A stretch of DNA of 64,000 bases from NCBI RefSeq assembly GCF_033097365.1, contig NZ_AP028461.1, positions 1,984,001-2,048,000 on the forward strand, given 5' to 3'. The position numbers were made by a program, and so were the translations under genes. The notes below the pieces were generated by a model. The model made no database searches. It had not been told where the DNA came from and saw only the letters and a list, made by a program, of their open reading frames with translations. The stretch comes from Actinoplanes sichuanensis (GTDB lineage Bacteria > Actinomycetota > Actinomycetes > Mycobacteriales > Micromonosporaceae). The number at the start of each line of letters is the position of its first letter. The first letter of the stretch is position 1. Below are positions 30,375 through 56,986 of the stretch, one piece after another.

Positions 30375-30393
30375 ATTGCATACGGTATTCACG
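30375..30393. promoter_or_regulatory. GntR-type operator upstream of fdsG (site A)
   Basis: ATTGCATAC-G-GTATTCACG: the left arm matches the island consensus ATTGCATAC perfectly and the right arm keeps GTAT. It lies between the divergent NACHT gene and the formate dehydrogenase operon, 43 bp before the chosen fdsG start. The same palindrome recurs at all other promoters of the oxalate island, which encodes its own GntR/FCD regulator. Confidence 0.75.
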
Positions 30394-30436
30394 CCGCAGT
30401 ATGGTGAATCCGCAGCCGAACGAGAGGCGGATCCTC

Positions 30437-30889
30437 GTGGTCAATTCGATGACGGATCGGGTGCGGGCGCTGGTCGCCGCGCACCGGGGTGATCGCGGCG
30501 CGCTGATGCCGATCCTGCATGCGATTCAGGCCGAGTTCGGCTACGTCGACGCGGGTGTCGTGCCGGTGCTGGCCGCCGAGCTCAACATCTCCCGCGCCGA
30601 CGTGCACGGCGTGATCACCTTCTACACCGACTTCCGGTCCGAGCCGGCCGGCGCCACGGTCGTCAAACTCTGCCGCGCCGAGGCCTGCCAGTCGGTCGGC
30701 GCGGAGAAGCTGATCGCCCACGCCGAGCAGGTCCTCGGGATCAAGGTCGGCCAGACCACCCCGGACGGCGCGGTCACCCTGGAGCAGGTGTTCTGCCTGG
30801 GCAACTGCGCGCTCGGCCCGGCCGGCCAGATCAACGGACAGGTCCGCGGACGGCTCAGCCCGGCCCTTCTGCAGGAGTTGGTGCGCTGA
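30437..30889 (+). CDS. fdsG: formate dehydrogenase gamma subunit (NuoE-like, 2Fe-2S)
   Basis: I choose GTG at 30437 because AGAGG lies upstream; ATG at 30401, 7 bp behind the operator, is possible. About 150 aa. It is a NuoE-type thioredoxin-fold protein: helical N-terminus (RVRALVAAHRGDRGALMPILHAIQAEFGYV), ITFYTDFR, and four cysteines ligating a 2Fe-2S cluster (CRAEACQS and CLGNCALG). Followed by fdsB with TGATG overlap, then fdsA and fdsD. This order identifies the soluble NAD-dependent molybdenum formate dehydrogenase rather than complex I. The complex oxidises formate, the product of oxalyl-CoA decarboxylation, to CO2. Confidence 0.9.
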   Translation: MVNSMTDRVRALVAAHRGDRGALMPILHAIQAEFGYVDAGVVPVLAAELNISRADVHGVITFYTDFRSEPAGATVVKLCRAEACQSVGAEKLIAHAEQVLGIKVGQTTPDGAVTLEQVFCLGNCALGPAGQINGQVRGRLSPALLQELVR

Positions 30890-32438
30890 TGGTGACCACG
30901 ATCTACGTGCCCCGCGACTCGGCCGCGCTGTCGCTCGGCGCCGATCAGGTCGCCGCCGAGCTCGAACTGGCAGCGGCAGCGGAAGGCCGCCCGGTCCGGA
31001 TCGTCCGCAACGGCTCGCACGGCATGCTCTGGCTGGAACCACTGGTCGAGGTGGTCACCGACCGCGGCCGGATCGGGTACGGCCCGGTCGCCCCCGGCGA
31101 CGTCGACGACCTCGTCGCCGCCGGACTACTCGACGGCGCCGACCACGAACTGTGCCAGGGCGTCGTCACCGACCTGCCGTGGATGCGCGACCAGACCCGG
31201 CTCTGTTTCGCCCGCGTCGGCGTCACCGACCCGCTCGCACCCGACGACTACCTCGCCCACGGCGGACTGGCCGGCCTGCGCCGCGCCCTGGAGACACCCC
31301 GGCCGACGTGATCGCCGAGGTCACCGCGTCCGGGCTGCGCGGCCGCGGCGGCGCCGGATTCCCGGCCGGCATCAAATGGCAGACCGTCGCCGACACGGTG
31401 AGCGCCCAGAAGTTCGTCTGCTGCAACGCCGACGAGGGCGACAGCGGCACGTTCGCCGACCGGATGCTGATGGAGGGTGACCCGTTCACCCTGATCGAAG
31501 GCATGACCATCGCCGCCTACGCGGTCGGCGCCACCGAGGGCTACCTCTACATCCGTTCCGAGTATCCCGACGCGATCCGCACCATGCGCGACGCCATCGC
31601 CGTGGCCCGTGAGCAGGGCTGGCTGGGCCACGACATCCTCGGCACCGGGCTGCGGTTCGACCTGTTCGTGCGCGAGGGCGCGGGCGCGTACATCTGCGGT
31701 GAGGAGACCGCGATGCTGGAGAGCCTGGAGGGCAGACGCGGCATGGTCCGCGCCAAACCCCCGATCCCGGCGATCACCGGCCTGTTCGGCATGCCGACCG
31801 TGGTCAACAACGTGCTCACCCTGGCGTCGGTCCCGGCGATCGTCGCCGGCGGCGCCGCCGCCTACCAGGCCCTCGGCGTCGAACGCTCCCGCGGCACCCA
31901 GGTCTTCCAACTGGCCGGCAACATCGCCCGCGGCGGCGTCTTCGAGACCGCCTTCGGCATGACACTGCACAACCTGATCAACGACTACGGCGGCGGTACG
32001 CGCAGCGGCCGCCCGATCCGCGCGGTGCAGGTCGGCGGCCCACTGGGGGCGTATCTGCCGGCCGACGGCCTCGACCTGCCGATGGAGTACGAGGCGTTCG
32101 CCGCCGCCGGTGCGATGCTCGGGCACGGCGGCATCGTGGTCTTCGACGACACCGTGGACATGGCCGCGATGGCCCGCTTCGCCATGGAGTTCTGCGCCGA
32201 GGAGTCCTGCGGCAAATGCACCCCCTGCCGGGTCGGCGCGGTCCGCGGCGTCGAAGTGATCGACAAGATCGTCGCCGGGCAGGACACCGACGACAACCTC
32301 GCCCTGCTCGGCGACCTCTGCGAGTTGATGACCGAAGGGTCGCTGTGCGCGATGGGCGGCCTGACCCCGATGCCGGTACGCAGCGCGCTACTGCACTTCG
32401 CCGACGACTTCGGCCCGAACGGAAGGCGCCCCTCATGA
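30889..32438 (+). CDS. fdsB: formate dehydrogenase beta subunit (NuoF-like), frameshifted
   Basis: One gene split over two frames. The first part starts at ATG 30889 and encodes the N-terminal thioredoxin-like domain (to GLRRALETPRPT, stop near 31311). The second part continues in another frame from about 31298 with TPADVIAEVTASGLRGRGGAGFPAG. A single missing base, or a -1 shift on the CCCC run at 31297-31300, restores one protein of about 516 aa. NADH/FMN motifs (GRGGAGFPAGIKW, CCNADEGDSGTF, YICGEETAMLESLEG) and the 4Fe-4S site (ESCGKCTPCR) are intact. It transfers electrons from the Fe-S chain through FMN to NAD+. The frameshift may be a sequencing error because the rest of the operon is intact. 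Confidence 0.85.
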
Positions 32439-35206
32439 GCCTGCTGAAGGAACCCGACCTCGGCACCCCCGCCCGGCCCGGCCCGGCCACCGTGTCGATC
32501 GAGGTCGACGGGCTGCCGGTGACCGTGCCCGAGGGCACCTCGGTGATGCGGGCCGCCGCCCTCTGCGGCATCGACGTGCCGAAACTGTGCGCCACCGACA
32601 GCCTGGAGGCGTTCGGCTCGTGCCGGCTCTGCCTCGTCGAGATCGACGGCCGGCGCGGCACCCCGGCGTCCTGTACCACCCCGGTCACCGACGGCATGCG
32701 GGTCCGCACCCAGACCCCCAAGCTGGAGAAACTCCGGCAGGGCGTGATGGAGCTGTACATCTCCGACCACCCGCTGGACTGCCTGACCTGCTCGGCCAAC
32801 GGCGACTGCGAGTTGCAGGACATGTCCGGCGCAGTCGGTCTGCGGCAGGTCCGCTACGGCTACGACGGCGCCAACCACCGCGACGAGAAGACCGACACCA
32901 GCAACCCGTACTTCGACTTCGAGGCGTCCAAATGCATCTCCTGCTCCCGCTGCGTCCGGGCCTGCGGTGAGGTGCAGGGCACGTTCGCGCTGACCATCGA
33001 GGGCCGCGGCTTCGAGTCGAAGGTGTCCGCCGGTGGCACCGACTTCATGAGTTCGGAATGCGTGTCGTGCGGCGCGTGTGTGCAGGCCTGCCCGACCGCG
33101 ACGCTGCAGGAGAAGTCGGTGATCCAGCTCGGGATGCCGAGCCGCAGTGTGATCACCACCTGCGCGTACTGCGGGGTCGGCTGCTCGTTCAAGGCCGAAC
33201 TGCGCGGCGCCGAACTGGTCCGGATGGTGCCCTACAAGGACGGCGGCGCCAACGAGGGCCACTCCTGCGTCAAGGGCCGGTTCGCGTTCGGCTACGCCAC
33301 CCACCCGGACCGGGTCCTCACCCCGATGGTCCGTGCGAGGATCACCGACGAGTGGCAGCCGGTCGACTGGGACACCGCGATCGCGTTCACCGCCGCGAAG
33401 CTGCGCGACATCCAGACGCGGCACGGCGTCGCCGCGATCGGTGGGATCACCTCGTCGCGTACCACTAATGAAGAGGTCTATGTCGTTCAGAAGATGATCC
33501 GGGCCGCGTTCGGCAACAACAACGTCGACACCTGTGCCCGGGTCTGCCACTCACCGACCGGGTACGGCCTGAAACAGACCTTCGGCACGTCGGCCGGCAC
33601 GCAGGACTTCCGGTCGGTCGCCGAGTCCGACGTGATCATGGTGATCGGCGCCAACCCGACCGACGGGCACCCGGTCTTCGCGTCCCGGATGAAACGCCGG
33701 CTGCGCGAGGGCGCCCAGCTGATCGTGATCGACCCGCGCCGCATCGACCTGGTCCGGTCGCCGCACATCGAGGCCCGACACCACCTGCAGCTCGCCCCCG
33801 GCACCAACGTGGCGATCGTCAACGCGCTGGCCCACGTGGTGCTGACCGAGGGACTCGTCGACCGGACGTTCGTCGACGAGCGCTGCGAGGACTTCGACGA
33901 CTGGGCCGAGTTCATCGCGTGTGCGGAGAACAGTCCGGAAGCGGTCGAGGAACTCACCGGCGTACCTGCGGAAGAGGTGCGGGCGGCCGCGCGGCTGTTC
34001 GCCACCGGCGGCAACGGCGCGATCTACTACGGGCTCGGCGTCACCGAGCACAGCCAGGGCTCGACCATGGTGATGGGGATGGCCAACCTCGCGATGGCCA
34101 CCGGCAACATCGGCCGTGAAGGCGTCGGCGTGAACCCGCTGCGCGGGCAGAACAACGTGCAGGGCTCCTGCGACATGGGTTCCTTCCCACACGAACTGCC
34201 CGGCTACCGGCACGTCTCCGACGACGTCGTGCGCGGCGTGTTCGAGAACATGTGGGGCAGCACCCTGCAGGCCGAACCCGGCCTGCGCATCCCCAACATG
34301 TTCGACGCCGCCATCGACGGCAGCTTCCGCGCCCTCTACGTGCAGGGCGAGGACATCGCCCAGTCCGACCCGAACATCAAACACGTGCACGCCGCGCTGG
34401 CCGCCCTGGAACTGGTCGTGGTCCAGGATCTGTTCCTCAACGAGACCGCGAAGTTCGCGCACGTGTTCCTGCCCGGCACCTCCTTTCTGGAGAAGGACGG
34501 CACGTTCACCAACGCCGAACGCCGGATCAACCGGGTCCGGCCGGTGATGGCCCCCAAGACCGGCAAACACGAGTGGCAGATCGTCGCCGAGATCGCCCAG
34601 GCCATGGGCTACCCGATGCACTACGACAGCTCCAGCCAGATCATGGACGAGATCGCCGCGCTCACCCCCACGTTCGCCGGGGTGTCCTTCGAGAAACTCG
34701 ACAAGCTGGGCAGCGTGCAGTGGCCCTGCAACGACAACGCCCCCGAGGGCACCCCGATCATGCACAGGGACGGGTTCGTCCGCGGCCGGGGCCGGTTCGT
34801 GCAGACCCCGTTCGTACCGACCCGCGAACGCAGCACCCGCAAATACCCGCTGATCCTGACCACCGGGCGCATCCTCAGTCAGTACAACGTCGGCGCGCAG
34901 ACCCGGCGGACCGCCAACGTGGCCTGGCACCCGGAGGACGTCCTGGAGATCCATCCGCACGACGCCGAGGTGCGCGGCATCCGCGACGGCGACGAGGTCA
35001 TGCTGACCAGCCGGGTCGGCGCCACGTCGCTGCGCGCGGTCCTCGCCGACCGGATGCCGGTCGGTGTCGTCTACACCACCTTCCACCACCCGGTGACCGG
35101 CGCGAACGTCGTGACCACGGAGAACTCCGACTGGGCCACCAACTGCCCGGAGTACAAGGTGACCGCCGTCCAGGTCGGGCTGACGAGCCCGGCGATGGCG
35201 GGCTGA
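32435..35206 (+). CDS. fdsA: NAD-dependent formate dehydrogenase catalytic alpha subunit (Mo-bisMGD)
   Basis: ATG at 32435 overlaps the fdsB stop; 923 aa, typical of FdsA/FdhA. The N-terminus carries a 2Fe-2S ferredoxin domain (Cys52, 63, 66, 80), a NuoG-type His/Cys 4Fe-4S region (HPLDCLTCSANGDC), two 4Fe-4S clusters (CISCSRCVRAC; CVSCGACVQAC) and the 4Fe-4S site of the molybdopterin domain (CAYCGVGC). The catalytic molybdenum ligand is Cys371 (ARVCHSPTGYG), so this is the cysteine and not the selenocysteine form. The C-terminal MGD-binding domain ends ENSDWATNCPEYK. It oxidises formate to CO2. Confidence 0.96.
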   Translation: MSLLKEPDLGTPARPGPATVSIEVDGLPVTVPEGTSVMRAAALCGIDVPKLCATDSLEAFGSCRLCLVEIDGRRGTPASCTTPVTDGMRVRTQTPKLEKLRQGVMELYISDHPLDCLTCSANGDCELQDMSGAVGLRQVRYGYDGANHRDEKTDTSNPYFDFEASKCISCSRCVRACGEVQGTFALTIEGRGFESKVSAGGTDFMSSECVSCGACVQACPTATLQEKSVIQLGMPSRSVITTCAYCGVGCSFKAELRGAELVRMVPYKDGGANEGHSCVKGRFAFGYATHPDRVLTPMVRARITDEWQPVDWDTAIAFTAAKLRDIQTRHGVAAIGGITSSRTTNEEVYVVQKMIRAAFGNNNVDTCARVCHSPTGYGLKQTFGTSAGTQDFRSVAESDVIMVIGANPTDGHPVFASRMKRRLREGAQLIVIDPRRIDLVRSPHIEARHHLQLAPGTNVAIVNALAHVVLTEGLVDRTFVDERCEDFDDWAEFIACAENSPEAVEELTGVPAEEVRAAARLFATGGNGAIYYGLGVTEHSQGSTMVMGMANLAMATGNIGREGVGVNPLRGQNNVQGSCDMGSFPHELPGYRHVSDDVVRGVFENMWGSTLQAEPGLRIPNMFDAAIDGSFRALYVQGEDIAQSDPNIKHVHAALAALELVVVQDLFLNETAKFAHVFLPGTSFLEKDGTFTNAERRINRVRPVMAPKTGKHEWQIVAEIAQAMGYPMHYDSSSQIMDEIAALTPTFAGVSFEKLDKLGSVQWPCNDNAPEGTPIMHRDGFVRGRGRFVQTPFVPTRERSTRKYPLILTTGRILSQYNVGAQTRRTANVAWHPEDVLEIHPHDAEVRGIRDGDEVMLTSRVGATSLRAVLADRMPVGVVYTTFHHPVTGANVVTTENSDWATNCPEYKVTAVQVGLTSPAMAG

Positions 35207-35209
35207 CCG

Positions 35210-35416
35210 ATGTCACCGCAGGTCCGGATGATCAACGACATCGCCGTCCAGTTCCGGCACCAGGGGCTGGACACGGCCGCGGCCGCCATCGCCGAACACG
35301 TCCGGGCGTTCTGGGACCCACGGATGCGCGCCGAACTCCTGCGCCGGGTCGACGCCGAGCCGGAGTCACTGGATCCGCTCGCCCTGGCCGCCGCCCTGCT
35401 GCTCACGTCACCTTAG
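35210..35416 (+). CDS. fdsD: formate dehydrogenase delta subunit
   Basis: ATG at 35210, 3 bp after fdsA; 68 aa. The sequence VRMINDIAVQFRHQ and the helix AIAEHVRAFWDPRMRAELL are typical of FdsD, a small accessory subunit found only with FdsGBA-type enzymes and needed for assembly. Ten bp further on hyi begins, so formate oxidation and glyoxylate assimilation genes share an operon. Confidence 0.92.
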   Translation: MSPQVRMINDIAVQFRHQGLDTAAAAIAEHVRAFWDPRMRAELLRRVDAEPESLDPLALAAALLLTSP

Positions 35417-35425: not shown

Positions 35426-36256
35426 GTGCCCGCACATCACCTCCGCTACGCCGTGAACTGCTCGATCCTGTTCACCGACCGGCCCCTGCTGCAGCGGCCG
35501 GCGGCGGCGAAGGCGGCCGGATTCGACGCGGTCGAGTTCTGGTGGCCGTTCACCGCAGCGGTGCCGCCCGACCCGGACGTGCGGGCGTTCGTCGACGCCG
35601 TCAACGACGCCGACGTCCGGCTGATCGGGCTCAACTTCTTCGCCGGTGACATGCCCGGCGGCGACCGGGGCGTGCTGTCCTCACCGGCGCATTCGGCCGA
35701 GTTCCGCGACAACGTCGAACTGGTCGCGATGATCGGTGCCGCCACCGGCTGCCGGTCCTTCAACGCGCTGTACGGCAACCGGATCCCGTTCATCACCCGC
35801 GAACTGCAGGACGACACCGCGGTCGCGAACCTCGCCTTCGCCGCGAACACGGTGGCCCGGATCGGCGGCACGGTGCTGGTCGAACCGGTCAGCGGGCCGT
35901 TCCCCTACCTGCTGCGCACCGCCGCCGACGTCGTCGCGGTGCTGGACCGGGTCCGGACCGAACGCGGGGCACCGAACCTGGCCCTGCTCGCCGACCTCTA
36001 CCACCTGACCGTCAACGGCGACGACCTGTCCAAGGTCCTGGCCGAACACCTCGACCGGATCGGGCACGTGCAGATCGCCGACGCACCCGGCCGACACGAA
36101 CCCGGCACCGGCGACATCGACATCGACGGCCACCTGAGCCGCCTCGAACAGTCCGGCTACCGGGGCTGGGTCAGCCTGGAGTACGTCGCGACCGGGCCGT
36201 GTTTCGACTGGCTGCCCCGGGAACGCCGGGCCGCGACGAAAGGAACTTCGGCATGA
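35426..36256 (+). CDS. hyi: hydroxypyruvate isomerase
   Basis: GTG at 35426 with AGGGAGA upstream; 276 aa. An AP-endonuclease-2/xylose-isomerase TIM barrel with the Hyi pattern: AVNCSILFTDRPLLQRPAAAKAAGFDAVEFWWPF, LNFFAGDMPGGDRG, FNALYGNR, VEPVSG, LADLYHL and HVQIADAPGRHEPGTGDI. It interconverts hydroxypyruvate and tartronate semialdehyde in the glyoxylate/glycerate pathway. It overlaps glxR (ATGA). Confidence 0.93.
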   Translation: MPAHHLRYAVNCSILFTDRPLLQRPAAAKAAGFDAVEFWWPFTAAVPPDPDVRAFVDAVNDADVRLIGLNFFAGDMPGGDRGVLSSPAHSAEFRDNVELVAMIGAATGCRSFNALYGNRIPFITRELQDDTAVANLAFAANTVARIGGTVLVEPVSGPFPYLLRTAADVVAVLDRVRTERGAPNLALLADLYHLTVNGDDLSKVLAEHLDRIGHVQIADAPGRHEPGTGDIDIDGHLSRLEQSGYRGWVSLEYVATGPCFDWLPRERRAATKGTSA

Positions 36257-37149
36257 CGACGGTCGGTTTCATCGGACTCGGGATCATGGGCGGCCCGATG
36301 GCCGTCAACCTGGCCGAAGCCGGCTTCGACGTGGTCGGCTTCGACGTGGTCCCACCCCGCAACGACCTCTTGACCCGGGCCGGCGGCCGGATCGCGGGCA
36401 GCGTGGCCGAGGCGGTGCGGAAAGCCGACGTCGTCGTCACGATGGTCCGCGACTCGGCCGACGTCGAGACGGTCGCCCTCGGCGAGCAGGGCATCCTCGC
36501 CCACGCCCGGCCCGGGCTGCTCTACATCGACATGAGCAGCATCTCGCCCACCACGTCGCGCGACGTCGCCGCGGAGGCGGAACTCCTCGGGGTACGGGCA
36601 CTGGACGCCCCGGTCAGCGGCGGGGAGTCGGGCGCGATCGAGGGCAGTCTGTCGATCATGGTCGGTGGTGACGCCGAGGACTTCCAGGCGGCCCTACCGG
36701 TCCTGGAGGTGGTCGGCGCGACCGTGGTACACGTCGGCCCACACGGTGCCGGCCAGACGGTGAAGGCCGCCAACCAGCTGATCGTGGCCGGCACCATCGA
36801 ACTCGTCGCCGAGGCCATCGTCTTCCTCGAAGCCTACGAAGTGGACACCGACGCCGCGGTCCGGGTGCTGGCCGGTGGCCTGGCCGGCAACCGGATCCTG
36901 GACCGCAAGGCGGCCGGCATGCTGGCCCGTACCTTCGAACCGGGTTTCCGCATCGACCTGCACCACAAGGACATGGGCATCGTCACCACCGCCGCCCGCG
37001 ACGCCGGAGTGGTCATCCCGCTGGGCTCGGCGGTGGCGCAGCTGATCGCCGCGCTGAAGGCACAGGGCGACGGCGGCCTCGACCACAGCGCCCTGTTGAA
37101 ACTGGTCGAACAGCTCTCCGGCCGCTCCACGGTCCGCCCGGGGTCATAG
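36253..37149 (+). CDS. glxR: 2-hydroxy-3-oxopropionate (tartronate semialdehyde) reductase
   Basis: ATG at 36253 overlaps the hyi stop; 298 aa. Beta-hydroxyacid dehydrogenase family: GFIGLGIMGGPMAVNLAEAG at the N-terminus, the substrate motif DAPVSGGESGAIEGSLSIMVGG, catalytic Lys in GAGQTVKAANQ and the C-terminal KDMGIV. It reduces tartronate semialdehyde, formed by Gcl, to D-glycerate. Last gene of the fds-hyi-glxR operon; its 3' end overlaps moeA by 6 bp. Confidence 0.94.
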   Translation: MTTVGFIGLGIMGGPMAVNLAEAGFDVVGFDVVPPRNDLLTRAGGRIAGSVAEAVRKADVVVTMVRDSADVETVALGEQGILAHARPGLLYIDMSSISPTTSRDVAAEAELLGVRALDAPVSGGESGAIEGSLSIMVGGDAEDFQAALPVLEVVGATVVHVGPHGAGQTVKAANQLIVAGTIELVAEAIVFLEAYEVDTDAAVRVLAGGLAGNRILDRKAAGMLARTFEPGFRIDLHHKDMGIVTTAARDAGVVIPLGSAVAQLIAALKAQGDGGLDHSALLKLVEQLSGRSTVRPGS

Positions 37150-38415
37150 CGGCGAACCGAGGACCTGGGCCGGCGGTCGGTCGGTCTCCGGCGCCGTGAC
37201 ACCGATCGGTGACGTGCCGGCGGGCAGCGGGAGCAGCTCGACCTCGCCGCCGGTCCAGCCCGGCGGCACCACCGCGAGCGCGTCCGCCCCGGCCGCGCCC
37301 CACAACGAACCCGGACGGTCGTGCCCGACGGGCCGGGCCGTCGCGCCGACCAGGGTCACCGGCACCAGGCGGGTGTGGTGGTCGTGCGGTGTCACCGGAC
37401 CGGCCGGCACAGCGGTCGGCGACGGCTTCGACGGGCGGCCGGCCAGGCCCTCCAGCAACGGCGTGAGCAGGGTCGACGCGGCGACCAGAGCCGCGAACGG
37501 GTTACCGGGCAACCCGACCACGAAACGCCCGTCCGGCAGCACCGCGAACAACTGCGGATGCCCGGGCCGGCAGGCGACACCGTGAATCGGCACCCGCGCG
37601 GCCAGCCGGTCGAGTGCGCCACGCAGATGATCGGCGGCTCCGGCCGAGGTGGCCCCGCAGACCACCAGCACGTCGGCGTCGCGACGCAGCAGCGCGTCGA
37701 CCATCGCGTCGCGATCGTCGGTCACCCGGGACTCCCACACCGGCTCGGCTCCGGCACCCCGGATCAGGCCGGGCAGCATCGGTCCGATCGCGTCACGCAC
37801 CCGACCGGCCGCCGGGATCCCGCTCCGGCACAGCTCACCCCCGGTGACCACGATCCCGACCCGGGGACGGCGATGCACGGCCAGCGTGTCATGCCCGAGG
37901 CTGGCCGCCAGCCCGAGCACCACCGGACCGACCACCGTGCCGGCCGGGAGCACCTGCCGGCCGGCCGGACAGTCCTCACCCCGGCGGCGGATGTGTCGGC
38001 CCGGGCGGAACTCGCCGGTCAGCGCGACACCCGTCCGGGTGGACCGTTCATAGGGGAGCACGGCGTCGGCACCGGCCGGAACCACCGCACCGGTGCCGAT
38101 CTCCATCGCGCTGCCGGCCGGCAGCGGCGGCGGCACCGGGTCACCGGCCAGCACCCGCCCGACGACCCGCCACGGCCCCGGACCGGCCACGGCATATCCG
38201 TCCATGGCGGCGGCGTCGTGGGCGGGCAGCGGCGAGAGCGCCACCAGCGGCACCGCGAGCGTGGCGCCGGTCGCTCTGTCGAGCGGCATCTCGACCGCCG
38301 GCAGCGGCACACCGGCCTCGCGGGCGAACCGCCGGGCCCGCTGCCAGTCGATGCCGGTCACCGGTCGAGCACCGGGCGGATCGGGTCCTTCGGCACGAAC
38401 ATCCCTGCTCCTCAT
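37144..38415 (-). CDS. moeA: molybdopterin molybdenumtransferase MoeA
   Basis: I choose the ATG at 38415 (MRSRDVRAEG); upstream in-frame codons would run into the operator. About 423 aa. MoeA signatures are clear: AMDGYAV with DAAAMDGYAVAGPG, the TGAVVPAGADAVLPYE region, the GETSxG-like VCGATSAGAADHL and LPGNPFAALVA. It inserts molybdate into molybdopterin. Its place in this island, divergent from the MFS carrier, suggests supply of cofactor for FdsA. Confidence 0.92.
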   Translation of the reverse strand: MRSRDVRAEGPDPPGARPVTGIDWQRARRFAREAGVPLPAVEMPLDRATGATLAVPLVALSPLPAHDAAAMDGYAVAGPGPWRVVGRVLAGDPVPPPLPAGSAMEIGTGAVVPAGADAVLPYERSTRTGVALTGEFRPGRHIRRRGEDCPAGRQVLPAGTVVGPVVLGLAASLGHDTLAVHRRPRVGIVVTGGELCRSGIPAAGRVRDAIGPMLPGLIRGAGAEPVWESRVTDDRDAMVDALLRRDADVLVVCGATSAGAADHLRGALDRLAARVPIHGVACRPGHPQLFAVLPDGRFVVGLPGNPFAALVAASTLLTPLLEGLAGRPSKPSPTAVPAGPVTPHDHHTRLVPVTLVGATARPVGHDRPGSLWGAAGADALAVVPPGWTGGEVELLPLPAGTSPIGVTAPETDRPPAQVLGSPL

Positions 38416-38477: not shown

Positions 38478-38496
38478 TCCACATACTGTATACGAT
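38478..38496. promoter_or_regulatory. GntR-type operator between moeA and the MFS carrier (site C)
   Basis: TCCACATAC-T-GTATACGAT: the core ATAC-N-GTAT is symmetric, and the site sits in the 100-bp divergent region between moeA and the oxalate/formate carrier, 20 bp before the carrier start, where a bound repressor would block both. Confidence 0.75.
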
Positions 38497-38515: not shown

Positions 38516-39868
38516 ATGACGGATCCCCACGACACCGCGGTGCGCGAGGTCAGAGACTTCTACGGCCGTCGCTACCGGATCGGGGAGAGCGACCGACTCC
38601 TGCTGGGACGGTCGCGATCCTGGATGGCCGGCCTGCCCTGGGCCGCGATGCTGGCGATCAGCCTGTTCCAGTACGGCTACGGTGCCGCCCTGCCCACCCT
38701 GGCCGCCGCCGACGGCTGGAGCGTGTGGCAGGCACTCGCCGTGCTCGGGCTGTGGGTGGTCGCGCAGGCGGCCGGTTCCCCGCTCGGCGGCTGGCTGTAT
38801 CAGCGGGTGCGCCCGGCCGTGACGATGCTCGCGGGCGCCGTCTGCTGCCTGATCGCCCTGGCCACCCTGGCCCACAGCGGCGACCCGGCCGTCGTCCTGG
38901 TGGGCTACTCCCTGCTCGGCGGCCTCGGCGCCGGCCTGATCTACATGACCTGCATAGCCACCGTCACCGAGTGGTTCCCGGAGCGGCTGGCGTCGCGGGT
39001 GGCGATGGTCGGCGCCGCGTTCGGCTACGGCGCGATCCCGTTCGTCGTCGTCGCCGGCCTACTCCTGACCCCGGCGAACCGGACGGTCGTGCTCGACGCC
39101 ACCGCGGTGCTCGTCTGCGCCGTGGTGGCGACCTGCGGACTGCTGATGCGCCGGCCGCCGCGCCACTGGTGGCCGCAACAGATCGACCCGCAGCGCTGGG
39201 CCCTCGACCGGCGCCTCAACCGCAGCGTCCCGCACAACCGGCCGGCGTCCCGCCCGTACCCGCCGATGGCCGCGATGCGCAGCGGCATGCTCCCGATGAT
39301 GTTCGTGGTGGTGGTGCTCACCGCCGCGATGGCCCTGTTCGACATCGCCTACCTGGCCGGCACGGCGTACACCCGGGGGCTGCCTGCCGCCACCCTGGTC
39401 GCCGCGATGGCCGCGCTGGCCGCCTCGAACGGTCTCGGCCGTGCGGTGACCAGCTCGCTGGCCGACCGGATCGGCCGCCGTGCCACTCTCGGGCTGTCCC
39501 TGCTGGCCGGCGGGGTGGCCCAGTTCGGGCTGCTCGCGGCCGCACGCAACGACAACCACCCGGCCGCGCTGATCGGTTTCGCCGCGCTGGCCGGCGCCGG
39601 TGCCGGTGCGGGCTACTCGCTGCTGGTCAGCCTGGTCCGCGACTGGTTCGGCGACGACGCGACGGTGCCCAACTACGGCATCGTCTACAGCGGCAAGGCG
39701 ATCGGCGGCCTGGCCGGGACCGTGCTCGCCGGCCTGGTGGTGACCACTCCGGACTCGGTCGTGCCGTTCGTGGTGGCCGGCTGCCTCGGTCTGCTCGGCG
39801 CGGTACTGACCCGCTGGATGCGCCAGCCCGGCCCGGCCCTGGTCCGCCTGCCGTCGGCCGTCCCCTGA
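38516..39868 (+). CDS. MFS transporter, probable oxalate/formate antiporter (OxlT-like)
   Basis: ATG at 38516 with GGAGG upstream; 450 aa, 12 predicted helices. An N-terminal tail (about 1-35) precedes helix 1. FQYGYGAALPTLAAADGW, the loop GGWLYQR, TVTEWFPERLASRVAMVGAAFGYG and YGIVYSGKAIGGLAGTVLAG match the oxalate:formate antiporter (OFA) subfamily of MFS. In Oxalobacter OxlT exchanges oxalate for formate. Island context supports oxalate import. It is followed by fdhD and controlled from site C. Confidence 0.88.
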   Translation: MTDPHDTAVREVRDFYGRRYRIGESDRLLLGRSRSWMAGLPWAAMLAISLFQYGYGAALPTLAAADGWSVWQALAVLGLWVVAQAAGSPLGGWLYQRVRPAVTMLAGAVCCLIALATLAHSGDPAVVLVGYSLLGGLGAGLIYMTCIATVTEWFPERLASRVAMVGAAFGYGAIPFVVVAGLLLTPANRTVVLDATAVLVCAVVATCGLLMRRPPRHWWPQQIDPQRWALDRRLNRSVPHNRPASRPYPPMAAMRSGMLPMMFVVVVLTAAMALFDIAYLAGTAYTRGLPAATLVAAMAALAASNGLGRAVTSSLADRIGRRATLGLSLLAGGVAQFGLLAAARNDNHPAALIGFAALAGAGAGAGYSLLVSLVRDWFGDDATVPNYGIVYSGKAIGGLAGTVLAGLVVTTPDSVVPFVVAGCLGLLGAVLTRWMRQPGPALVRLPSAVP

Positions 39869-48787: not shown

Positions 48788-49740
48788 ATCTACCGCTCTG
48801 GGTATGGGCCGTGACGATCATCGGGTTCGCCGTCATGATCGCCTTCGACTTCTACCTGGTCGCCCGGAACCCGCGGGAGCCGTCCTTCCGGGAGTGCGTC
48901 GCCTGGGTGAGCTTCTACGTGCTGGCGGCGGTCGCCTTCGGGTTCCTGCTCATCGGGACCTACGGGGCCGGATACGGGGGGCAGTTCTTCGCCGGCTGGC
49001 TCACCGAGTACTCGCTCAGCGTCGACAACCTGTTCGTCTTCATCATCATCATGAGCCGGTTCGCGGTACCGGTGAAGTACCGACAGAAGGTGCTGCTCAT
49101 CGGCATCGTGCTGGCGCTGCTGATGCGCGGGATCTTCATCGCCGCCGGCGCCTCGGCGGTCGCCCGGTTCGACTGGCTGTTCTATCTGTTCGGCGCGTTC
49201 CTGATCTACACCGCGGTGAAACTGGTCGGGCCGCAGCAGGAGGACGAGTTCTCGGAGAACTTCGCCCTCCGTACGGCGAAGCGGATCCTGCCGACCACCG
49301 AGTCCTACCGGGGCGCCTCGATGCTGGTCCGGGTGGACGGCCGGCGGATGGTCACGCCGATGCTGATCGTGATGGTGGCGATCGGCACCACCGACCTGCT
49401 CTTCGCGCTCGACTCGATCCCGGCGATCTTCGGGCTGACCCAGGAGCCGTATCTGGTGTTCACCGCGAACACCTTCGCGCTGATGGGCCTGCGGCAGCTC
49501 TACTTCCTGCTCGGCGGGCTGTTGGATCGGCTGGTCTACCTCAGCAAGGGCCTGGCTTTCATCCTGGCCTTCATCGGCGTGAAGCTGATGCTGGAGGCGG
49601 CGCATCACGACGGGGTGTCGTGGGCGCCGGCGGTGCCGATCACCGTCTCGCTCGGCGTGATCGTCGGCACGCTGATCATCACCACCGTCGCCAGCCTGCT
49701 GAAATCCCGCAGGGTGGAGAAGGAGGAGCAGCCGGCGTGA
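48784..49740 (+). CDS. TerC-family integral membrane protein
   Basis: ATG at 48784, overlapping the previous stop; 318 aa. TerC/Alx signature: EYSLSVDNLFVFIIIMSRFAVP, LLIGIVLALLMRGIFI, a second copy of the acidic motif, TTDLLFALDSIPAIFGLTQEPYLVFTANTFALMGLRQLYFLL. Family members export manganese or calcium, or protect exported metalloenzymes. Here it may remove metal cations that enter with oxalate. Last gene of the frc operon. Confidence 0.92.
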   Translation: MNLPLWVWAVTIIGFAVMIAFDFYLVARNPREPSFRECVAWVSFYVLAAVAFGFLLIGTYGAGYGGQFFAGWLTEYSLSVDNLFVFIIIMSRFAVPVKYRQKVLLIGIVLALLMRGIFIAAGASAVARFDWLFYLFGAFLIYTAVKLVGPQQEDEFSENFALRTAKRILPTTESYRGASMLVRVDGRRMVTPMLIVMVAIGTTDLLFALDSIPAIFGLTQEPYLVFTANTFALMGLRQLYFLLGGLLDRLVYLSKGLAFILAFIGVKLMLEAAHHDGVSWAPAVPITVSLGVIVGTLIITTVASLLKSRRVEKEEQPA

Positions 49741-50054: not shown

Positions 50055-50113
50055 CTAGACACCCCGCCGTGCCATGGTCCACGATTGGTGTCTACCCCAT
50101 ACGGTATGCAATC
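50055..50113. promoter_or_regulatory. conserved promoter block with GntR-type operator upstream of oxc (site B2)
   Basis: The operator ACCCCATAC-G-GTATGCAAT at 50094-50112 is identical to site B, and the upstream part (ctagacacc...ccacgat) also matches that block. It lies 77 bp before the oxc start. Confidence 0.85.
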
Positions 50114-50189: not shown

Positions 50190-51926
50190 ATGACCATCGC
50201 ATCACTCCGGGAAACAGAGGCCGGCGACACCGTCGGCGCGCAGAGACTCACCGACGGAATCCATCTGGTCGTCGACGCGCTCAAGCTCAACGAGGTCGAG
50301 GCCGTCTACGGGGTCGTCGGCATCCCGATCACCGACCTGGCCCGCCTGGCACAGGCGTCCGGCATCCGCTACATCGGTTTCCGGCACGAGAGCGCCGCCG
50401 GGCACGCCGCCGCGGCGGCCGGCTTCCTGACCCGCAAACCGGGCATCTGCCTGACCGTGTCCGCGCCGGGCTTCCTCAACGGACTCGTCGCGCTGGCCAA
50501 CGCCACCGTCAACTGCTTCCCGATGGTGCAGATCTCCGGCTCCAGCGAGCGGCACCTGGTCGACCTCCAACGCGGCGACTACGAGGAGATGGACCAGCTG
50601 GCCGCGGCCCGACAGTTCGCCAAGGCCGCGTACCGGGTACATCGGGCCGAGGACATCGGCCGTGGCGTGGCCCGCGCGATCCGGACCGCGGTGTCCGGCC
50701 GACCCGGCGGGGTCTACCTGGACATCCCGGCCGCGGTCCTCGGTGAGGTCATCGACGCCGGCCTGGGCGCGGCGTCACTGTGGCGGGTGGTCGACCCGGC
50801 GCCACGGCAGGTGCCCGAGCCGGCCGCCCTGGACCGGGCGATCGAGCTGCTCGCGAGCGCTCAGCGGCCGCTCGTCGTGCTCGGCAAGGGCGCCGCGTAC
50901 GCCCAGGCCGACGACCAGATCCGCGAGTTCGTCGAGCGCACCGGCATCCCGTACCTGCCGATGTCGATGGCGAAGGGCCTGCTGCCCGACGACCACCCGC
51001 AGTCGGTGGCCAGCACCCGGTCGCTGGCCCTGCGCCGGGCCGACGTGGTGATGCTGGTCGGCGCCCGGCTGAACTGGCTGCTCGGCCACGGCGACGCCCC
51101 GCAGTGGAACCCGGACGTCAAGTTCATCCAGGTCGACATCGCCAGCACCGAGCTGGACAGCAACCAACCCATCGCGGCGCCGCTGGTCGGCGACGTCGGC
51201 TCGGTGCTGGCGGCCCTGAGCGAGCGGACCGGACCGGGCCGGATCACGGTGCCGGCCCCGTGGCGTGACGAACTCGCGGCGCGCTCCGCGGACAACGTCG
51301 CCAAGATGTCCAAGCGCCTGGCCGCCGCCGAGACCGCACACCCGATGAAGTTCCTCGGCGCGCTGCAGGCCATCCGCGACGTCCTGCGCGACAACCCCCG
51401 GGCGTACCTGGTCAACGAGGGTGCGAACGCACTGGACCTGGCCCGCAACACGATCGGGATGCAGGTGCCCCGGCACCGGCTGGACAGCGGCACCTGGGGC
51501 GTGATGGGCATCGGCCTCGGGTTCGCGATCGCCGCCGCGGTGGAGAGCGGCGACCCGGTGGTGGCCATCGAGGGCGACAGCGCGTTCGGGTTCAGCGGCA
51601 TGGAACTGGAGACGATCTGCCGCTACGACCTGCCGATCGTCACCGTCGTGCTGAACAACAGCGGCGTCTACCGCGGCGACGCGGCGGCCTCCGAGTCGGG
51701 CGATCCGGCACCGACCGCCCTGCAGGCCCGGCACGACCTGATGATCGCCGCGTTCGGCGGCCGGGGCTACCGGGCGACCACCCCCGACGAGGTCACCACG
51801 GCCCTCCGGGAGGCGCTGGCGCTCGGTAAGCCCGCGCTCATCGACTGTGTCATCGACCCCGCCGACGGCACCGAGAGCGGCAACATCGCGCACCTCAACC
51901 CGAAGGGGATCACCGTCCAGCGGTGA
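50190..51926 (+). CDS. oxc: oxalyl-CoA decarboxylase
   Basis: ATG at 50190 with GGAGGG upstream; 578 aa, close to O. formigenes Oxc (568). ThDP-dependent enzyme with catalytic Glu67 (RHESAAGHAA), the ThDP-Mg motif GDSAFGFSGMELETICRYDLPI and the Oxc-type active-site loop NNSGVYRGD. The motif GDSAFG rather than GDGxxx is typical of Oxc. It converts oxalyl-CoA to formyl-CoA and CO2. Formyl-CoA is then used by Frc. Flanked by the oxc operator and an insertion element. Confidence 0.96.
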   Translation: MTIASLRETEAGDTVGAQRLTDGIHLVVDALKLNEVEAVYGVVGIPITDLARLAQASGIRYIGFRHESAAGHAAAAAGFLTRKPGICLTVSAPGFLNGLVALANATVNCFPMVQISGSSERHLVDLQRGDYEEMDQLAAARQFAKAAYRVHRAEDIGRGVARAIRTAVSGRPGGVYLDIPAAVLGEVIDAGLGAASLWRVVDPAPRQVPEPAALDRAIELLASAQRPLVVLGKGAAYAQADDQIREFVERTGIPYLPMSMAKGLLPDDHPQSVASTRSLALRRADVVMLVGARLNWLLGHGDAPQWNPDVKFIQVDIASTELDSNQPIAAPLVGDVGSVLAALSERTGPGRITVPAPWRDELAARSADNVAKMSKRLAAAETAHPMKFLGALQAIRDVLRDNPRAYLVNEGANALDLARNTIGMQVPRHRLDSGTWGVMGIGLGFAIAAAVESGDPVVAIEGDSAFGFSGMELETICRYDLPIVTVVLNNSGVYRGDAAASESGDPAPTALQARHDLMIAAFGGRGYRATTPDEVTTALREALALGKPALIDCVIDPADGTESGNIAHLNPKGITVQR

Positions 51927-53315: not shown

Positions 53316-54056
53316 TCAGGTTAAGGAATTCGGTGAACCGGACTCCTTACGCCTCTGGTGGTACGACTCGCGGGTGCGCTCGGTGTGCTTGCGCATCAGC
53401 TCACCGGCCCGCCGGCTGTTGCCCTCGGCGATCGTCTCGATCAGGGCGGCGTGCTCATCCCACGCCTCGCGGCCCCGGGTCCGGGCGATCGGCGAGTAAT
53501 ACCACCGCGTGCGGCGGTCGACCATCGCGATCAGTTGGGCCAGCACCTTGTTGCCGGACATGTCGACCAGGTGCGCGTGCAACGCCGCATTCGCCTCGAC
53601 CAGCGCCACCTGGCTGTCCTCGCTGAGCGCCTGCTCGCCGGCCCGCTGCAGCTCGCGGAGCCGCTCGACCTGCTCGGGCGTCGCGTTCTTCGCGGCCAGC
53701 CGTGCCGACTCCGCCTCCAGCAGGGTGCGGGTGCTGAGCAGCTGGTCGGCCTCCTCCTCGGTGGGCACGTGGACGAAGGCGCCGAGCGCGGGCCGCAGGT
53801 CGACCCAGCCCTCGTTGTGCAGCCGCTGGAGGGCCTCGCGGACCGGCTGTCGGCTCACCCCGAGGTGGGCGGCCAGCTCGTTCTCGACCAGGTGCTCACC
53901 GGGTTGCAGCTCACGATTGATGATCATCTCGGCCAGGGCGTCGTAGACCGCCTGGCGCAGCGGGGCCGGCCGCTCCAGGGGCTGACGTGCGGCCCGGGCC
54001 CCACCCAGTGAACGTCGCGCGCCGGCTGGCGAGGTCGCGCCTCTCCGATCGGTCAT
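53316..54056 (-). CDS. GntR/FCD-family transcriptional regulator of the oxalate island
   Basis: ATG at 54056 with GGAGG 8 bp upstream; 246 aa. An N-terminal winged helix (about 30-95: LRQAVYDALAEMIINRELQPGEHLVENELAAHLGVSRQPVREALQRL) is followed by an all-helical FCD ligand domain (ARLAAKNATPEQVERLREL, NAALHAHLVDMSGNKVL, DEHAALIETIAEGN), with Asp/His residues that usually bind a metal and an organic acid. FCD regulators typically bind ATAC-N-GTAT-like palindromes, and this motif recurs at island promoters, including its own. An acid such as oxalate or glyoxylate is the likely ligand (inference). Confidence 0.9.
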   Translation of the reverse strand: MTDRRGATSPAGARRSLGGARAARQPLERPAPLRQAVYDALAEMIINRELQPGEHLVENELAAHLGVSRQPVREALQRLHNEGWVDLRPALGAFVHVPTEEEADQLLSTRTLLEAESARLAAKNATPEQVERLRELQRAGEQALSEDSQVALVEANAALHAHLVDMSGNKVLAQLIAMVDRRTRWYYSPIARTRGREAWDEHAALIETIAEGNSRRAGELMRKHTERTRESYHQRRKESGSPNSLT

Positions 54057-54152: not shown

Positions 54153-54160
54153 GACGGATC

Positions 54161-54202: not shown

Positions 54203-54213
54203 GTCGACGCGAT

Positions 54214-55899
54214 CTACTCGAACTCTTTCACCGCGGCTATGGACAGGCCGTGCGCGGTGTTCGCCTCCCGCTCGATCATCACCTCGACCAGCACCGGCCG
54301 GCTGGTCCGACGGGCCTCCTTGGTGGCCCAGGCGAGGGCGTCGGCGATCTCGCCCGGTTCGTGCACCCGGCGGCCGGCACACCCGTACGCCTCCATGATC
54401 TTGACGTTGTCCGTGCCGTATCGGTCGTAGTGGATGTCCACCTCGTAGTTCATGTCGTAGCCGATCTCCGCCTGGCGGATCAGCCCGAGGTACTCGTTGT
54501 TCAACATGATCAGCACGAAGGGGATGTCGTACTGGGCCGCGACGGCCAGCTCCTCGACCAGGAACTGGAACGAATAGTCACCGACCACACCGACCACCTC
54601 GGCGTCCGGCCGCGCCGACTTGACCCCGATCGCGGCCGGGATCTCCCAGCCGAGTGGCCCGGCCTGGCCGCAGACCTGATAGTGCCGGGGCTTGAACACC
54701 CGCTGGAACTGCCCGGACCAGATCTGGTACAGCCCGATCGCGGTGACGAAGTAGGTGTCCGGCCCGAAGAACTCGTTGATCTCCCGGAACACCCGGGGCG
54801 CCTTGATCGGGACCGAGTCGAAGTCGTCCCGGCGGCCCAGCGTCTCGCGCAGCCCGCGGACCGTGCAGACCCAGGCGCCGCGGTCACGAGTGGTGCCACG
54901 CCGCCGGGCCGCGTCGAGCAGCGCCGCCAGGAACGGCCCGGCCGCCGACACGATGCCGAGGTCCGGCCCGAACACCCTACCGAGCTGGGTCGGCTCGATG
55001 TCGACGTGGATGAACCGCCGGTCGCCGCGATAGGTCTCCAGATCGCCGGTGTGCCGGTCCCCGAAGCGGGCGCCCACCGCGAGTACCAGGTCGGACTCCA
55101 GGAAGGAGGCGTTGCCCCACCGCTGGGTGGTCTGGATGCCGGTCATCCCGGCGAACAGATCGTGATCCTCGGGCAGTGCGCCCTTGCCCATCAGGGTCAC
55201 CTGCACCGGGATGTCCAGGGCCTCGGCGACCTCCCGCAACAGCCCGCCGGCCTCGTCGATGATGACCCCGCCGCCGGCCAGGATCAGCGGGCGCTCGGCG
55301 GCCAGCAGCATGTCGAGGGCCCGTTCCACGCGGGGTGGATGCGGCTCGACCACCGGCACCGGCAGCGGCGCGTCGATCGAGGCGTCCCATTCGATCTCCT
55401 GCCGGGCCACGTCGACCGGCAAGTCGATCAGCACCGGCCCGGGTCGTCCGGAGCGGGCGATCCGGAACGCCTCCCGGAAGATCCACGGCGCCTGGGCCGC
55501 CTCCTTGACCTGGACCGCCCACTTGGTGACCGGCTTGGCGATCTCGACGATGTCCACCGCCTGGAACGCCTCCTGGTGCAGCTTGGTGGTGGGCGCCTGA
55601 CCGGTGATGCAGAGCATCGGGATGGAGTCGGCGTGTGCGGTGTACAGGCCGGTGATCATGTTGGTGCCGGCCGGCCCGGAGGTGCCGATGGCCACGCCGA
55701 CCCGGCCGTTGGTACGGGCCCAGCCGTCGGCCATGTGGGTGGCGCCCTCCTCGTGCCGGACGATCAGGTGTTTGATCTGGCTGCGCCGCAGCGCCGCGTA
55801 GAGCGGAAGGATGGCGGCGCCCGGGCAGCCGAACGCGATGTCGACCCCCTCCGAGGCGAGCACCGCGACGACCGCGTCCATACAGGGGATCTTCGGCAT
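54214..55899 (-). CDS. gcl: glyoxylate carboligase
   Basis: ATG at 55899 with GGAGG 9 bp upstream; 561 aa. ThDP enzyme with Gcl hallmarks: GCPGAAILPLYAAL, GTSGPAGTNMITGLYTAHADSIPMLCITGQAP, FQAVDIVEIAKPVTKWAV, QVCGQAGPLGWEIPAAIGV, and the ThDP-Mg motif GDYSFQFLVEELAVAAQYDIPF. It joins two glyoxylates into tartronate semialdehyde and CO2. Residue 50 (RHEEGATH) is Glu where E. coli Gcl has Val51, a notable difference. It forms an operon with panE upstream. Confidence 0.93.
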   Translation of the reverse strand: MPKIPCMDAVVAVLASEGVDIAFGCPGAAILPLYAALRRSQIKHLIVRHEEGATHMADGWARTNGRVGVAIGTSGPAGTNMITGLYTAHADSIPMLCITGQAPTTKLHQEAFQAVDIVEIAKPVTKWAVQVKEAAQAPWIFREAFRIARSGRPGPVLIDLPVDVARQEIEWDASIDAPLPVPVVEPHPPRVERALDMLLAAERPLILAGGGVIIDEAGGLLREVAEALDIPVQVTLMGKGALPEDHDLFAGMTGIQTTQRWGNASFLESDLVLAVGARFGDRHTGDLETYRGDRRFIHVDIEPTQLGRVFGPDLGIVSAAGPFLAALLDAARRRGTTRDRGAWVCTVRGLRETLGRRDDFDSVPIKAPRVFREINEFFGPDTYFVTAIGLYQIWSGQFQRVFKPRHYQVCGQAGPLGWEIPAAIGVKSARPDAEVVGVVGDYSFQFLVEELAVAAQYDIPFVLIMLNNEYLGLIRQAEIGYDMNYEVDIHYDRYGTDNVKIMEAYGCAGRRVHEPGEIADALAWATKEARRTSRPVLVEVMIEREANTAHGLSIAAVKEFE

Positions 55900-55923
55900 G
55901 GATTCAGACCTCCGAGAGACGGG

Positions 55924-56928
55924 TCAGGCCGGAGCCGGCGTGGGGATGATCGGCGCCCGCTTGGCCATGGTCCGGGCCAGCAGGTCGGTCGCGGCGTGCA
56001 CGGTCCGCAGCGTGGGGGCAGGCGCCCCGGTGATGTCGGCCATCTCGACCACCGCGGCGACCACGGCGTCGAGCTCCAACTGTTTGCCGGCTTCCAGGTC
56101 CTGCAGCATCGAGGTCTTGTGATGCCCGACCCGCTGCGCGCCGTCGAGGCGTCGCGCGATGGAGATCTCCGGGGTGCTGCCGACGCGGGCGGCGATGTCG
56201 AGGATCTCCTCCATCATCAGCTCGACGACCCGGCGGGTGCCGGCGCTCTCACAGATCTCGACCATGGTGGCCCGGGTCAGTGCACTGATCGGGTTGAGCG
56301 AGGCGTTGCCCATCAGCTTGATCCAGATGTCGTCGCGCAGTCGGGGTTCGACCGGGCACTTCAGGCCGCCGGCGATCATCGCCTCGCTGAACCACCGGCA
56401 CCGCTGCGACACCGTGCCGTCCGGCTCGCCGATGGAGAACCGGGTGCCCTCCAGGTGCTGGATCACCCCCGGTGACTTGATCACGGTGGCCGGGTAGACC
56501 ACGCAGCCGATCGCGCGCTCCGGTGCCATCACCGCGGAGGTCTCGCCGTCCGGGTCCACCGCCTCGATCCGGTGCCCCTCGTACGGCCCGGGCAGCCGGT
56601 GGAAATACCACCACGGGATGCCGTTCTGCCCGGCGACCAGAGCCGTCTGCGGGCCGAGCAGGGGAGCGAGGAGCGGACCGGCCGAGGCGTACGAGTGGGC
56701 TTTCAGACCGAGGAAGACGTAGTCCACCGGGCCGATCGTCGACGGATCGTCGGTGGCGTGCGGATGTGCGGAGAAGTCTCCGCGCGGGCTGAGCACCCGT
56801 ACCCCGTGGGCCCGCAGCGCGGCCAGGTGCGCCCCGCGGGCGATCAGATGGACGTCTGCTCCGGACCGGCACAGCGCGGCGCCGACATAGGCGCCGATGG
56901 CACCGGCTCCGAGCACTGCAACTCGCAT
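55924..56928 (-). CDS. PanE-family reductase, probable oxalyl-CoA reductase
   Basis: ATG at 56928 with GGGGGTGG upstream; 334 aa. Ketopantoate-reductase fold: GAGAIGAYVGAALCRSGADV (Rossmann), LGLKAHS, VAGQNGIPWWYF and the C-terminal helical domain with KLMGNASLNPISALTRA and SMLQDLEAGKQLELDAVV. In Methylobacterium extorquens a PanE homologue (PanE2) is the oxalyl-CoA reductase that makes glyoxylate. Here the gene is first in the panE-gcl operon under a GntR-type operator, fitting that role. True ketopantoate reduction for pantothenate is the alternative. Confidence 0.87.
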   Translation of the reverse strand: MRVAVLGAGAIGAYVGAALCRSGADVHLIARGAHLAALRAHGVRVLSPRGDFSAHPHATDDPSTIGPVDYVFLGLKAHSYASAGPLLAPLLGPQTALVAGQNGIPWWYFHRLPGPYEGHRIEAVDPDGETSAVMAPERAIGCVVYPATVIKSPGVIQHLEGTRFSIGEPDGTVSQRCRWFSEAMIAGGLKCPVEPRLRDDIWIKLMGNASLNPISALTRATMVEICESAGTRRVVELMMEEILDIAARVGSTPEISIARRLDGAQRVGHHKTSMLQDLEAGKQLELDAVVAAVVEMADITGAPAPTLRTVHAATDLLARTMAKRAPIIPTPAPA

Positions 56929-56967
56929 GGGCCACCCCCTGTTTGCACACGGATGTGTATGCGTTAT

Positions 56968-56986
56968 GGGGAGTACAGTATGCAAT
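56968..56986. promoter_or_regulatory. GntR-type operator upstream of panE-gcl (site E)
   Basis: GGGGAGTAC-A-GTATGCAAT: the right arm is a perfect match to the island consensus and the left keeps GTAC. It lies 40 bp upstream of the panE start (56928). A further GTATGCG half-site is at 56957-56963. Confidence 0.7.

Follow-up and report, generated by a model that had tools for sequence, protein, structure and literature searches.

Surveys of soil oxalate turnover (the oxalate-carbonate pathway) and of oxalate degraders use, among other genes, oxc, which encodes oxalyl-coenzyme A (CoA) decarboxylase (Oxc). Here, we describe an oxalate gene island of Actinoplanes sichuanensis (contig NZ_AP028461.1) and its decarboxylase slot, which holds canonical oxc in this genome and a gene for a different thiamine diphosphate (ThDP) enzyme, termed TPPx, in most sampled frc-bearing Actinomycetes. 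The window is the whole analysed stretch of 64,000 nucleotides (bases 1984001-2048000 of a 12.14-Mb single-contig genome); the island lies at 30375-56986 in window numbering, which is used throughout. Genes were called by hidden Markov model (HMM) scans of window proteins against NCBIfam, TIGRFAM and Pfam, with curated cut-offs applied. The starts of fdsG, fdsA, glxR, sucC, frc and the panE-like gene are predicted, and that of moeA is uncertain. The genes of the island are:

30449..30889, + strand: fdsG, formate dehydrogenase gamma subunit (NF004638, 198.1 bits, cut-off 198); longest open reading frame from 30320
30889..32438, + strand: fdsB, in two reading frames (30889-31311 and 31152-32438)
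32435..35206, + strand: fdsA, formate dehydrogenase alpha subunit (TIGR01591, 913 bits, cut-off 666)
35210..35416, + strand: fdsD (PF11390, 69 bits, cut-off 27)
35426..36256, + strand: hyi-like gene, hydroxypyruvate isomerase (TIGR03234, 243 bits, under the cut-off of 353)
36253..37149, + strand: glxR, tartronate semialdehyde reductase (TIGR01505, 364 bits, cut-off 341)
37144..38415, - strand: moeA, molybdenum cofactor synthesis (PF03453, PF00994, PF03454)
38516..39868, + strand: OFA-like carrier of the major facilitator superfamily (MFS), possible oxalate carrier (TIGR00890, 119 bits, under the cut-off of 375)
39957..40808, + strand: fdhD (NF001943, 396 bits, cut-off 269)
40977..41849, - strand: sucD (NF004230, 451 bits, cut-off 336)
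41855..43021, - strand: sucC (NF001913, 489 bits, cut-off 370)
43214..44443, + strand: frc, formyl-CoA:oxalate CoA-transferase (TIGR03253, 656 bits, cut-off 504)
44471..46624, + strand: acyl-CoA synthetase (ACS) forming a nucleoside diphosphate (family-level HMM match)
46713..48236, + strand: Nramp_1-type membrane protein (NF037982, 455 bits, cut-off 50)
48236..48787, + strand: u183, small membrane-type protein, matching no family in the scans
48784..49740, + strand: TerC/Alx membrane protein (TIGR03718, 368 bits, cut-off 246)
50190..51926, + strand: oxc, canonical oxalyl-CoA decarboxylase (TIGR03254, 979 bits, cut-off 739)
52014-53205, between oxc and the GntR gene: tnpB of IS200/IS605 type, broken, in two frames
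53316..54056, - strand: GntR/FCD regulator, presumed operator binder (PF00392, PF07729)
54214..55899, - strand: gcl, glyoxylate carboligase (NF008431, 902 bits, cut-off 791)
55924..56928, - strand: PanE-like reductase, candidate oxalyl-CoA reductase (subfamily NF005089, 451 bits, cut-off 223)

The initial annotation had read this region as a near-complete oxalate catabolic island, and for the gene set this holds: frc, oxc, glxR, gcl, fdsA, fdhD and sucCD pass their cut-offs, fdsG is at its cut-off, and fdsD, the hyi-like gene, moeA, the PanE-like gene, the ACS gene, terC and the GntR/FCD gene are assigned at family level. The caveat to completeness is fdsB, which is split between frames. Gcl falls slightly under the cut-off of a further model (TIGR01504, 699 of 711 bits). 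The Oxc catalytic residues E67, Y131, E132, Y494 and S563 are present in the oxc product, as in four relatives. The initial annotation also found glycerate kinase missing, and none was detected among the Pfam-scanned window proteins, a scan that covered part of the open reading frames and none of the rest of the genome.

Relatives were compared in a named-locus set, the best 80 of 220 loci retrieved with the Nramp-type protein, some of them cut by contig ends (L and G numbers below denote loci and genomes). The nearest named relative in the comparison is Actinoplanes italicus, with Frc, ACS and the Nramp-type protein combined being 95% identical. Each of Frc, ACS and u183 was found in 79 of these 80 loci; they occur together with the Nramp-type gene in 78, the exceptions being L064 (no Frc or ACS) and L036 (no u183); conservation in relatives, which the initial annotation had proposed as a check, is thus seen as an unscattered core. 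The ACS gene lies downstream of frc on the same strand in 79/80 loci (median gap 22 bp), and u183, a possible partner subunit, follows the Nramp-type gene in 79/80 (median gap 14 bp). TerC is found in 69 loci, PanE in 68 and SucC in 57, and Oxc in only 4. The first part of tnpB was not seen in any of the 80 loci at 40% identity and 40% coverage.

The palindromic operator ATACNGTAT occurs at nine exact sites in the genome, four of them within the island; the same pattern read backwards occurs twice. Four of nine sites inside 19.7 kb gives a binomial probability of 9e-10 for a place chosen after the fact. The operator copies of the island are:

30380..30388: operator ATACGGTAT, before fdsG
38483..38491: operator ATACTGTAT, between moeA and the MFS carrier gene
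43139..43147: operator ATACGGTAT, between sucC and frc
50099..50107: operator ATACGGTAT, before oxc, in a promoter block common to the TPPx genes of relatives
56972..56982: degenerate operator AGTACAGTATG, before panE-gcl

The first copy lies inside the longest fdsG reading frame, so the true fdsG start is probably downstream. The window's frc and oxc promoters share a block that ends in TACCCCATACGGTATGCAAT. The five exact sites outside the island were considered as regulon members and rejected: their flanks differ and, by eye, no recognised oxalate genes adjoin them, so they are taken as chance occurrences. The 1,634,894 bases of the 80 named loci hold 240 operator sites, against these five in the genome outside the island. 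Joint regulation, which had been proposed from a shared palindrome, is therefore borne out by four exact copies at island promoters, far beyond chance, and by the operator in relatives. The GntR/FCD gene, present in 73/80 named loci, presumably encodes the protein that binds the operator. The 400 bp upstream of TPPx contain an operator in 69/75, 10/10, 27/28, 7/7 and 3/5 loci of five slightly overlapping sets, and an exact operator lies within 400 bp upstream of panE in 63/65 named loci and in all four loci with panE from a census of Actinomycetes (the class census, below).

TPPx is an Oxc-unlike ThDP enzyme. It is found in 75 of the 80 named loci (split over two frames in L060), with Oxc in four and neither in L064; the genome of L064 carries TPPx, together with Frc and ACS, at another place. 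Judged against its relatives, the unusual part of the island is canonical oxc itself, a point beyond the initial annotation. TPPx directly precedes frc in most named loci; where Micromonosporaceae carry the Nramp cluster, terC and the regulator gene flank it instead, as they flank oxc in the window (L017, L073, L141 and L144-L147). These latter loci also have gcl, so TPPx does not replace gcl, and its candidacy as a Gcl replacement was dropped. A promoter block of about 60 bp, CTAGACAC...TACC(C/A)CATACGGTATGCA, precedes both oxc (window, L013, L015, L149) and TPPx (L017, L141, L144, with a weaker fit in L147); beyond it the sequences no longer match. In a quick-method tree of Frc, ACS and the Nramp-type protein (29 rows), the eight Oxc loci are interspersed with TPPx loci, which requires at least two changes, and we infer that the swap ran from TPPx to Oxc. 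Within the single genus g70 (family f21), three genomes have Oxc and nine have TPPx. One of the former, G406, carries SucDC, Frc (73%), ACS and an OFA carrier without TPPx, and has Oxc about 20 kb away beside fds (two fetched stretches, with 5 kb between them outside the fetch).

The wide genome searches, such as those of 220 Micromonosporaceae and 394 Actinomycetes, scored only 3-6 candidates per genome, so that absences of TPPx, Oxc or Frc in them are soft. Among the 394 Actinomycetes, Oxc was found in 14 genomes, TPPx in 28 and Frc over its cut-off in 34. Frc is present in every TPPx genome (28/28), the remaining six Frc genomes have Oxc, and none shows both; from set sizes, which ignore kinship, this disjointness within the 34 Frc genomes has a probability of 7e-7. 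The matched stretches of TPPx and Frc are 17-61 bp apart in 28/28 genomes. In the sampled Actinomycetes, canonical Oxc is thus the rarer partner of frc. Of 220 Micromonosporaceae, nine have Oxc, seven TPPx and none both; all 15 with the Nramp-type gene hold exactly one (nine Oxc, six TPPx), counting G141 after its locus was read (89% complete genome, TPPx and frc frame-split). The 50 genomes of the 80 loci, searched whole, show Oxc over cut-off in five, namely the four with oxc in the locus and Pseudonocardia eucalypti, which has a TPPx locus, its TPPx split over two frames, and Oxc elsewhere. No TPPx copy was found in the window's genome, where the best match is oxc itself (31%). As a separate observation, TPPx in L142 and L143 is accompanied by panE, fds genes, sucCD, gcl, glxR and hyi, and the 20 kb fetched contain no frc, ACS or Nramp.

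TPPx proteins are 69-99% identical to one another, 27-30% to Oxc and 29-32% to Gcl. Six of them passed none of the equivalog models shown: the best NCBIfam model, acetolactate synthase NF004516, gave 489-524 bits (cut-off 587), 2-hydroxyacyl-CoA lyase NF058623 gave 356-377 (cut-off 600), and Oxc TIGR03254 gave 227-246 (cut-off 739; five of the six proteins with a row shown). Databases name them acetolactate synthase or thiamine pyrophosphate-binding protein (best 120 of 7936 matches). The ThDP glutamate is kept in 74/74 TPPx proteins, and all 28 rows of alignment A2 share the C-terminal tail NQTMYK.

Kribbella genomes show TPPx in 33/38 and Oxc in 0/38. Going by the title of Robertson and Meyers 2022, oxalate use is reportedly widespread in Kribbella; the strains tested for oxalate use may differ from those of these 38 genomes. 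A passage of PMC10192776 gives K. albertanoniae as a confirmed oxalotroph. In a plasmid collection (72,556 records, plasmid records only), TPPx was found in 8 and Oxc in 27, with none listed in both. Beyond Actinomycetes, the annotation of Phyllobacterium sp. T1293 reads GntR, sucDC, acetate-CoA ligase, oxlT, TPP-binding protein, frc and sucCD, with 2-dehydropantoate 2-reductase further on. PanE, SucD, TPPx, Frc, ACS and an OxlT-like gene occur both in Cupriavidus metallidurans CH34 and in Caballeronia sp. M1242, the carrier of the former being OxlT by curated cut-off (TIGR04259, 653 bits, cut-off 335). In Cupriavidus metallidurans (L155, 9865), a copy of ATACNGTAT precedes the TPPx match by about 85 bp, which hints at an operator common to different phyla.

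For oxalate uptake, the window offers two candidates. The MFS carrier, initially called OxlT-like, is better described as OFA-like only, failing the OxlT model TIGR04259 (91 bits, cut-off 335). The Nramp-like label of the second protein was upheld by NF037982, and no match to the Pfam Nramp family PF01566 was found at E-values up to 10; with four relatives of the protein, PF01566 gave three scores under cut-off and no match for the fourth. Where DPGN and MPH, which we take to be the Nramp metal-site motifs, would be expected, it reads GMGES and AGPSG (places matched by eye), and a PDB search with it gave a single, meaningless match (E 0.53). In 28 class-census TPPx loci, the gene after ACS is of this Nramp type in 14, an OFA carrier in nine and a member of a second Nramp-superfamily group in four (L176, L180, L183, L184; 22-24% identical to the first), with one contig end; the presumed DPGN motif is seen at the aligned place in neither group. 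Oxalate or metal-oxalate is a possible substrate of the Nramp-type protein. OFA-like carriers occur alongside the Nramp-type gene in 51/80 named loci, so the idea that Nramp displaced OxlT is not supported.

Frc swaps CoA between formyl-CoA and oxalate, so a step that makes formyl-CoA is needed to close its cycle. In the proposed pathway, oxalate would enter the cell and receive CoA from Frc, with acyl-CoA supplied or primed by ACS and perhaps SucCD. The fixed position after frc suggests that ACS may be an ATP-dependent primer, and a role of SucCD as succinyl-CoA supplier is uncertain; in a passage of PMC3720670, YfdE and UctC gave no product from succinyl-CoA and oxalate, Frc itself being outside that test. 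In the oxidative branch, Oxc would split oxalyl-CoA into CO2 and formyl-CoA, Frc would free formate and FdsGBAD would oxidise it. In the assimilatory branch, the PanE-like reductase would make glyoxylate from oxalyl-CoA, which Gcl, Hyi and GlxR would convert to glycerate; the reductase role is suggested by its place in the regulon and by the precedent of Methylobacterium PanE2 (passages of PMC8411744 and PMC12686821). Both branches, traced already in the initial annotation, are well supported by curated Frc and Oxc equivalogs, a single rare operator that recurs at the main promoters, and the sharing of core and operator with relatives. The island is a jointly regulated oxalate set of an already known kind, and all steps in the window are known.

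What sets it apart from that kind is the natural swap of its key enzyme, by which a putative, unrecognised decarboxylase family becomes directly testable. The island is probably one form of a GntR/FCD-controlled oxalate regulon with an interchangeable decarboxylase slot, filled by Oxc here and by TPPx in most sampled frc-bearing Actinomycetes and some Proteobacteria. In Frc genomes where no Oxc was found, TPPx is the fitting partner for the formyl-CoA step, and would act as a second oxalyl-CoA decarboxylase where it occupies the slot, canonical Oxc having presumably replaced it in this genome behind the conserved promoter and operator. From sequence and gene context, it appears likely that TPPx is such an enzyme, independently evolved, more frequent than Oxc among frc-bearing Actinomycetes, occurring also in Alpha- and Betaproteobacteria and misnamed acetolactate synthase, that oxc-based surveys therefore miss most actinomycete oxalotrophs, and that in the window Oxc has taken over the TPPx slot behind its promoter. 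No non-Oxc oxalyl-CoA decarboxylase is reported for actinomycetes in the literature passages covered; Robertson and Meyers 2022 might describe one.

Several observations pull the other way. TPPx lacks Oxc residues Y120, E121, Y483 and S553 (0/74 each; residue names follow a passage of PMC10192776). Single alanine changes at Y120, E121 and Y483 leave about 10% activity in one Oxc (a passage of PMC7190790), and Methylobacterium Oxc with E135G, Y497F and S568G together with A415C shifted towards carboligation (a passage of PMC8411744). The absence of these water-network residues speaks against simple equivalence; TPPx would need its own catalytic solution, perhaps the conserved NNSSMNQIRYGQ stretch and the C-terminal tail. 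The best PDB match of TPPx is a 2-hydroxyacyl-CoA lyase (7pt3_A, 273 bits). In the class census, 8/14 Oxc genomes have no Frc at threshold, and 4/6 genomes with Oxc and Frc (G355, G464, G496, G512) hold another Frc type beside Oxc, 53-54% identical to that of the window; Oxc with the Frc of this cassette is therefore seen there only in the window's genome and G406, and the TPPx/Oxc split lies partly between two different Oxc/Frc arrangements. Most partner genes accompany TPPx in G180 and G074, but Frc, ACS and Nramp are absent from the 20 kb retrieved. An exact operator precedes panE in only 2/8 Micromonosporaceae, 0/6 Kribbella and 0/3 proteobacterial loci. The sampled taxa are not independent, given kinship among census genomes, and the wide searches have one known miss, the frame-split TPPx of G141. 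Finally, FdsG, FdsA and FdsD are found and the N-terminal part of FdsB lies in one frame and the remainder in another; the halves share a single frame in 5/5 relatives compared (L142, L143, L188, L190, L191). This split could reflect an error of sequencing or a genuine lesion; a genuine one would mean that the formate-oxidising branch is damaged in this genome.

The missing catalytic residues, the lyase structures as best PDB matches and the carboligation favoured by water-network loss in Methylobacterium Oxc (PMC8411744, in part) would suit a TPPx that is a formyl-CoA carboligase or lyase of the 2-hydroxyacyl-CoA lyase type, so that the swap marks a change of pathway. We consider this unlikely: L017 keeps every other compared cluster gene (71-90% identical, gcl included), the oxalate-equivalog Frc needs formyl-CoA returned, and Kribbella, reported as an oxalate user, shows no Oxc in 38 genomes. 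That the Oxc/TPPx split is functionally meaningless lineage sorting of two gene sets within an ordinary, known oxalate pathway is quite improbable; all window steps are indeed known, the census taxa are related and the other Frc type accompanies Oxc in four of six cases, but Micromonosporaceae and genus g70 each contain both forms, the core tree needs at least two changes, and oxc and TPPx genes have a promoter block in common. It is highly improbable that TPPx is an acetolactate synthase beside frc by accident, as database names and the best NCBIfam model would have it, given scores below that model's cut-off, class-census TPPx found solely in frc genomes (28/28), adjoining frc and mostly behind the oxalate operator, and no TPPx copy in the window's genome.

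Like type II oxalotrophy (oxc-frc with oxlT, as in Oxalobacter and E. coli yfdU-yfdW), the island has Frc, canonical Oxc and a formate product; unlike it, the island adds Fds, the glyoxylate branch, ACS, the Nramp-type protein, u183, TerC and a single operator, and many of its relatives hold TPPx instead of Oxc. With Methylobacterium extorquens and its oxalyl-CoA reductase PanE2 it has in common a branch from oxalyl-CoA to glyoxylate and a PanE-type protein, but here gcl, hyi and glxR lie within the island, and the PanE likeness is by subfamily (NF005089) rather than by PanE2 sequence. The solved structure closest to TPPx is a 2-hydroxyacyl-CoA lyase; PDB 7pt1 and its kin presumably represent the enzyme of Actinomycetospora. 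According to a passage of PMC8411744, ThDP enzymes of the 2-hydroxyacyl-CoA lyase (HACL) and Oxc types work on formyl-CoA, but TPPx falls under the lyase family cut-off and is tied to frc. In Streptomyces albulus, genes gene7078-7082 (MFS, hypothetical, formyl-CoA transferase and "acetolactate synthase") shift expression together (PMC9617413, in part); its main text does not use the word oxalate, and the likeness is by description, not sequence.

Two features flank the island upstream. A pntAB transhydrogenase lies at 23739-26728, with no exact operator copy nearby, and could supply NADPH to the reductase branch. A large protein beside the island (26789-30238) carries a WD40 beta-propeller at its C-terminus and matches nSTAND3 weakly, below threshold.

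If TPPx does the job of Oxc, many actinomycete oxalotrophs would be invisible to oxc surveys, and genes named acetolactate synthase beside frc would be misnamed. Work on mechanism and one-carbon engineering would then gain a ThDP enzyme that makes formyl-CoA and has a different active site.

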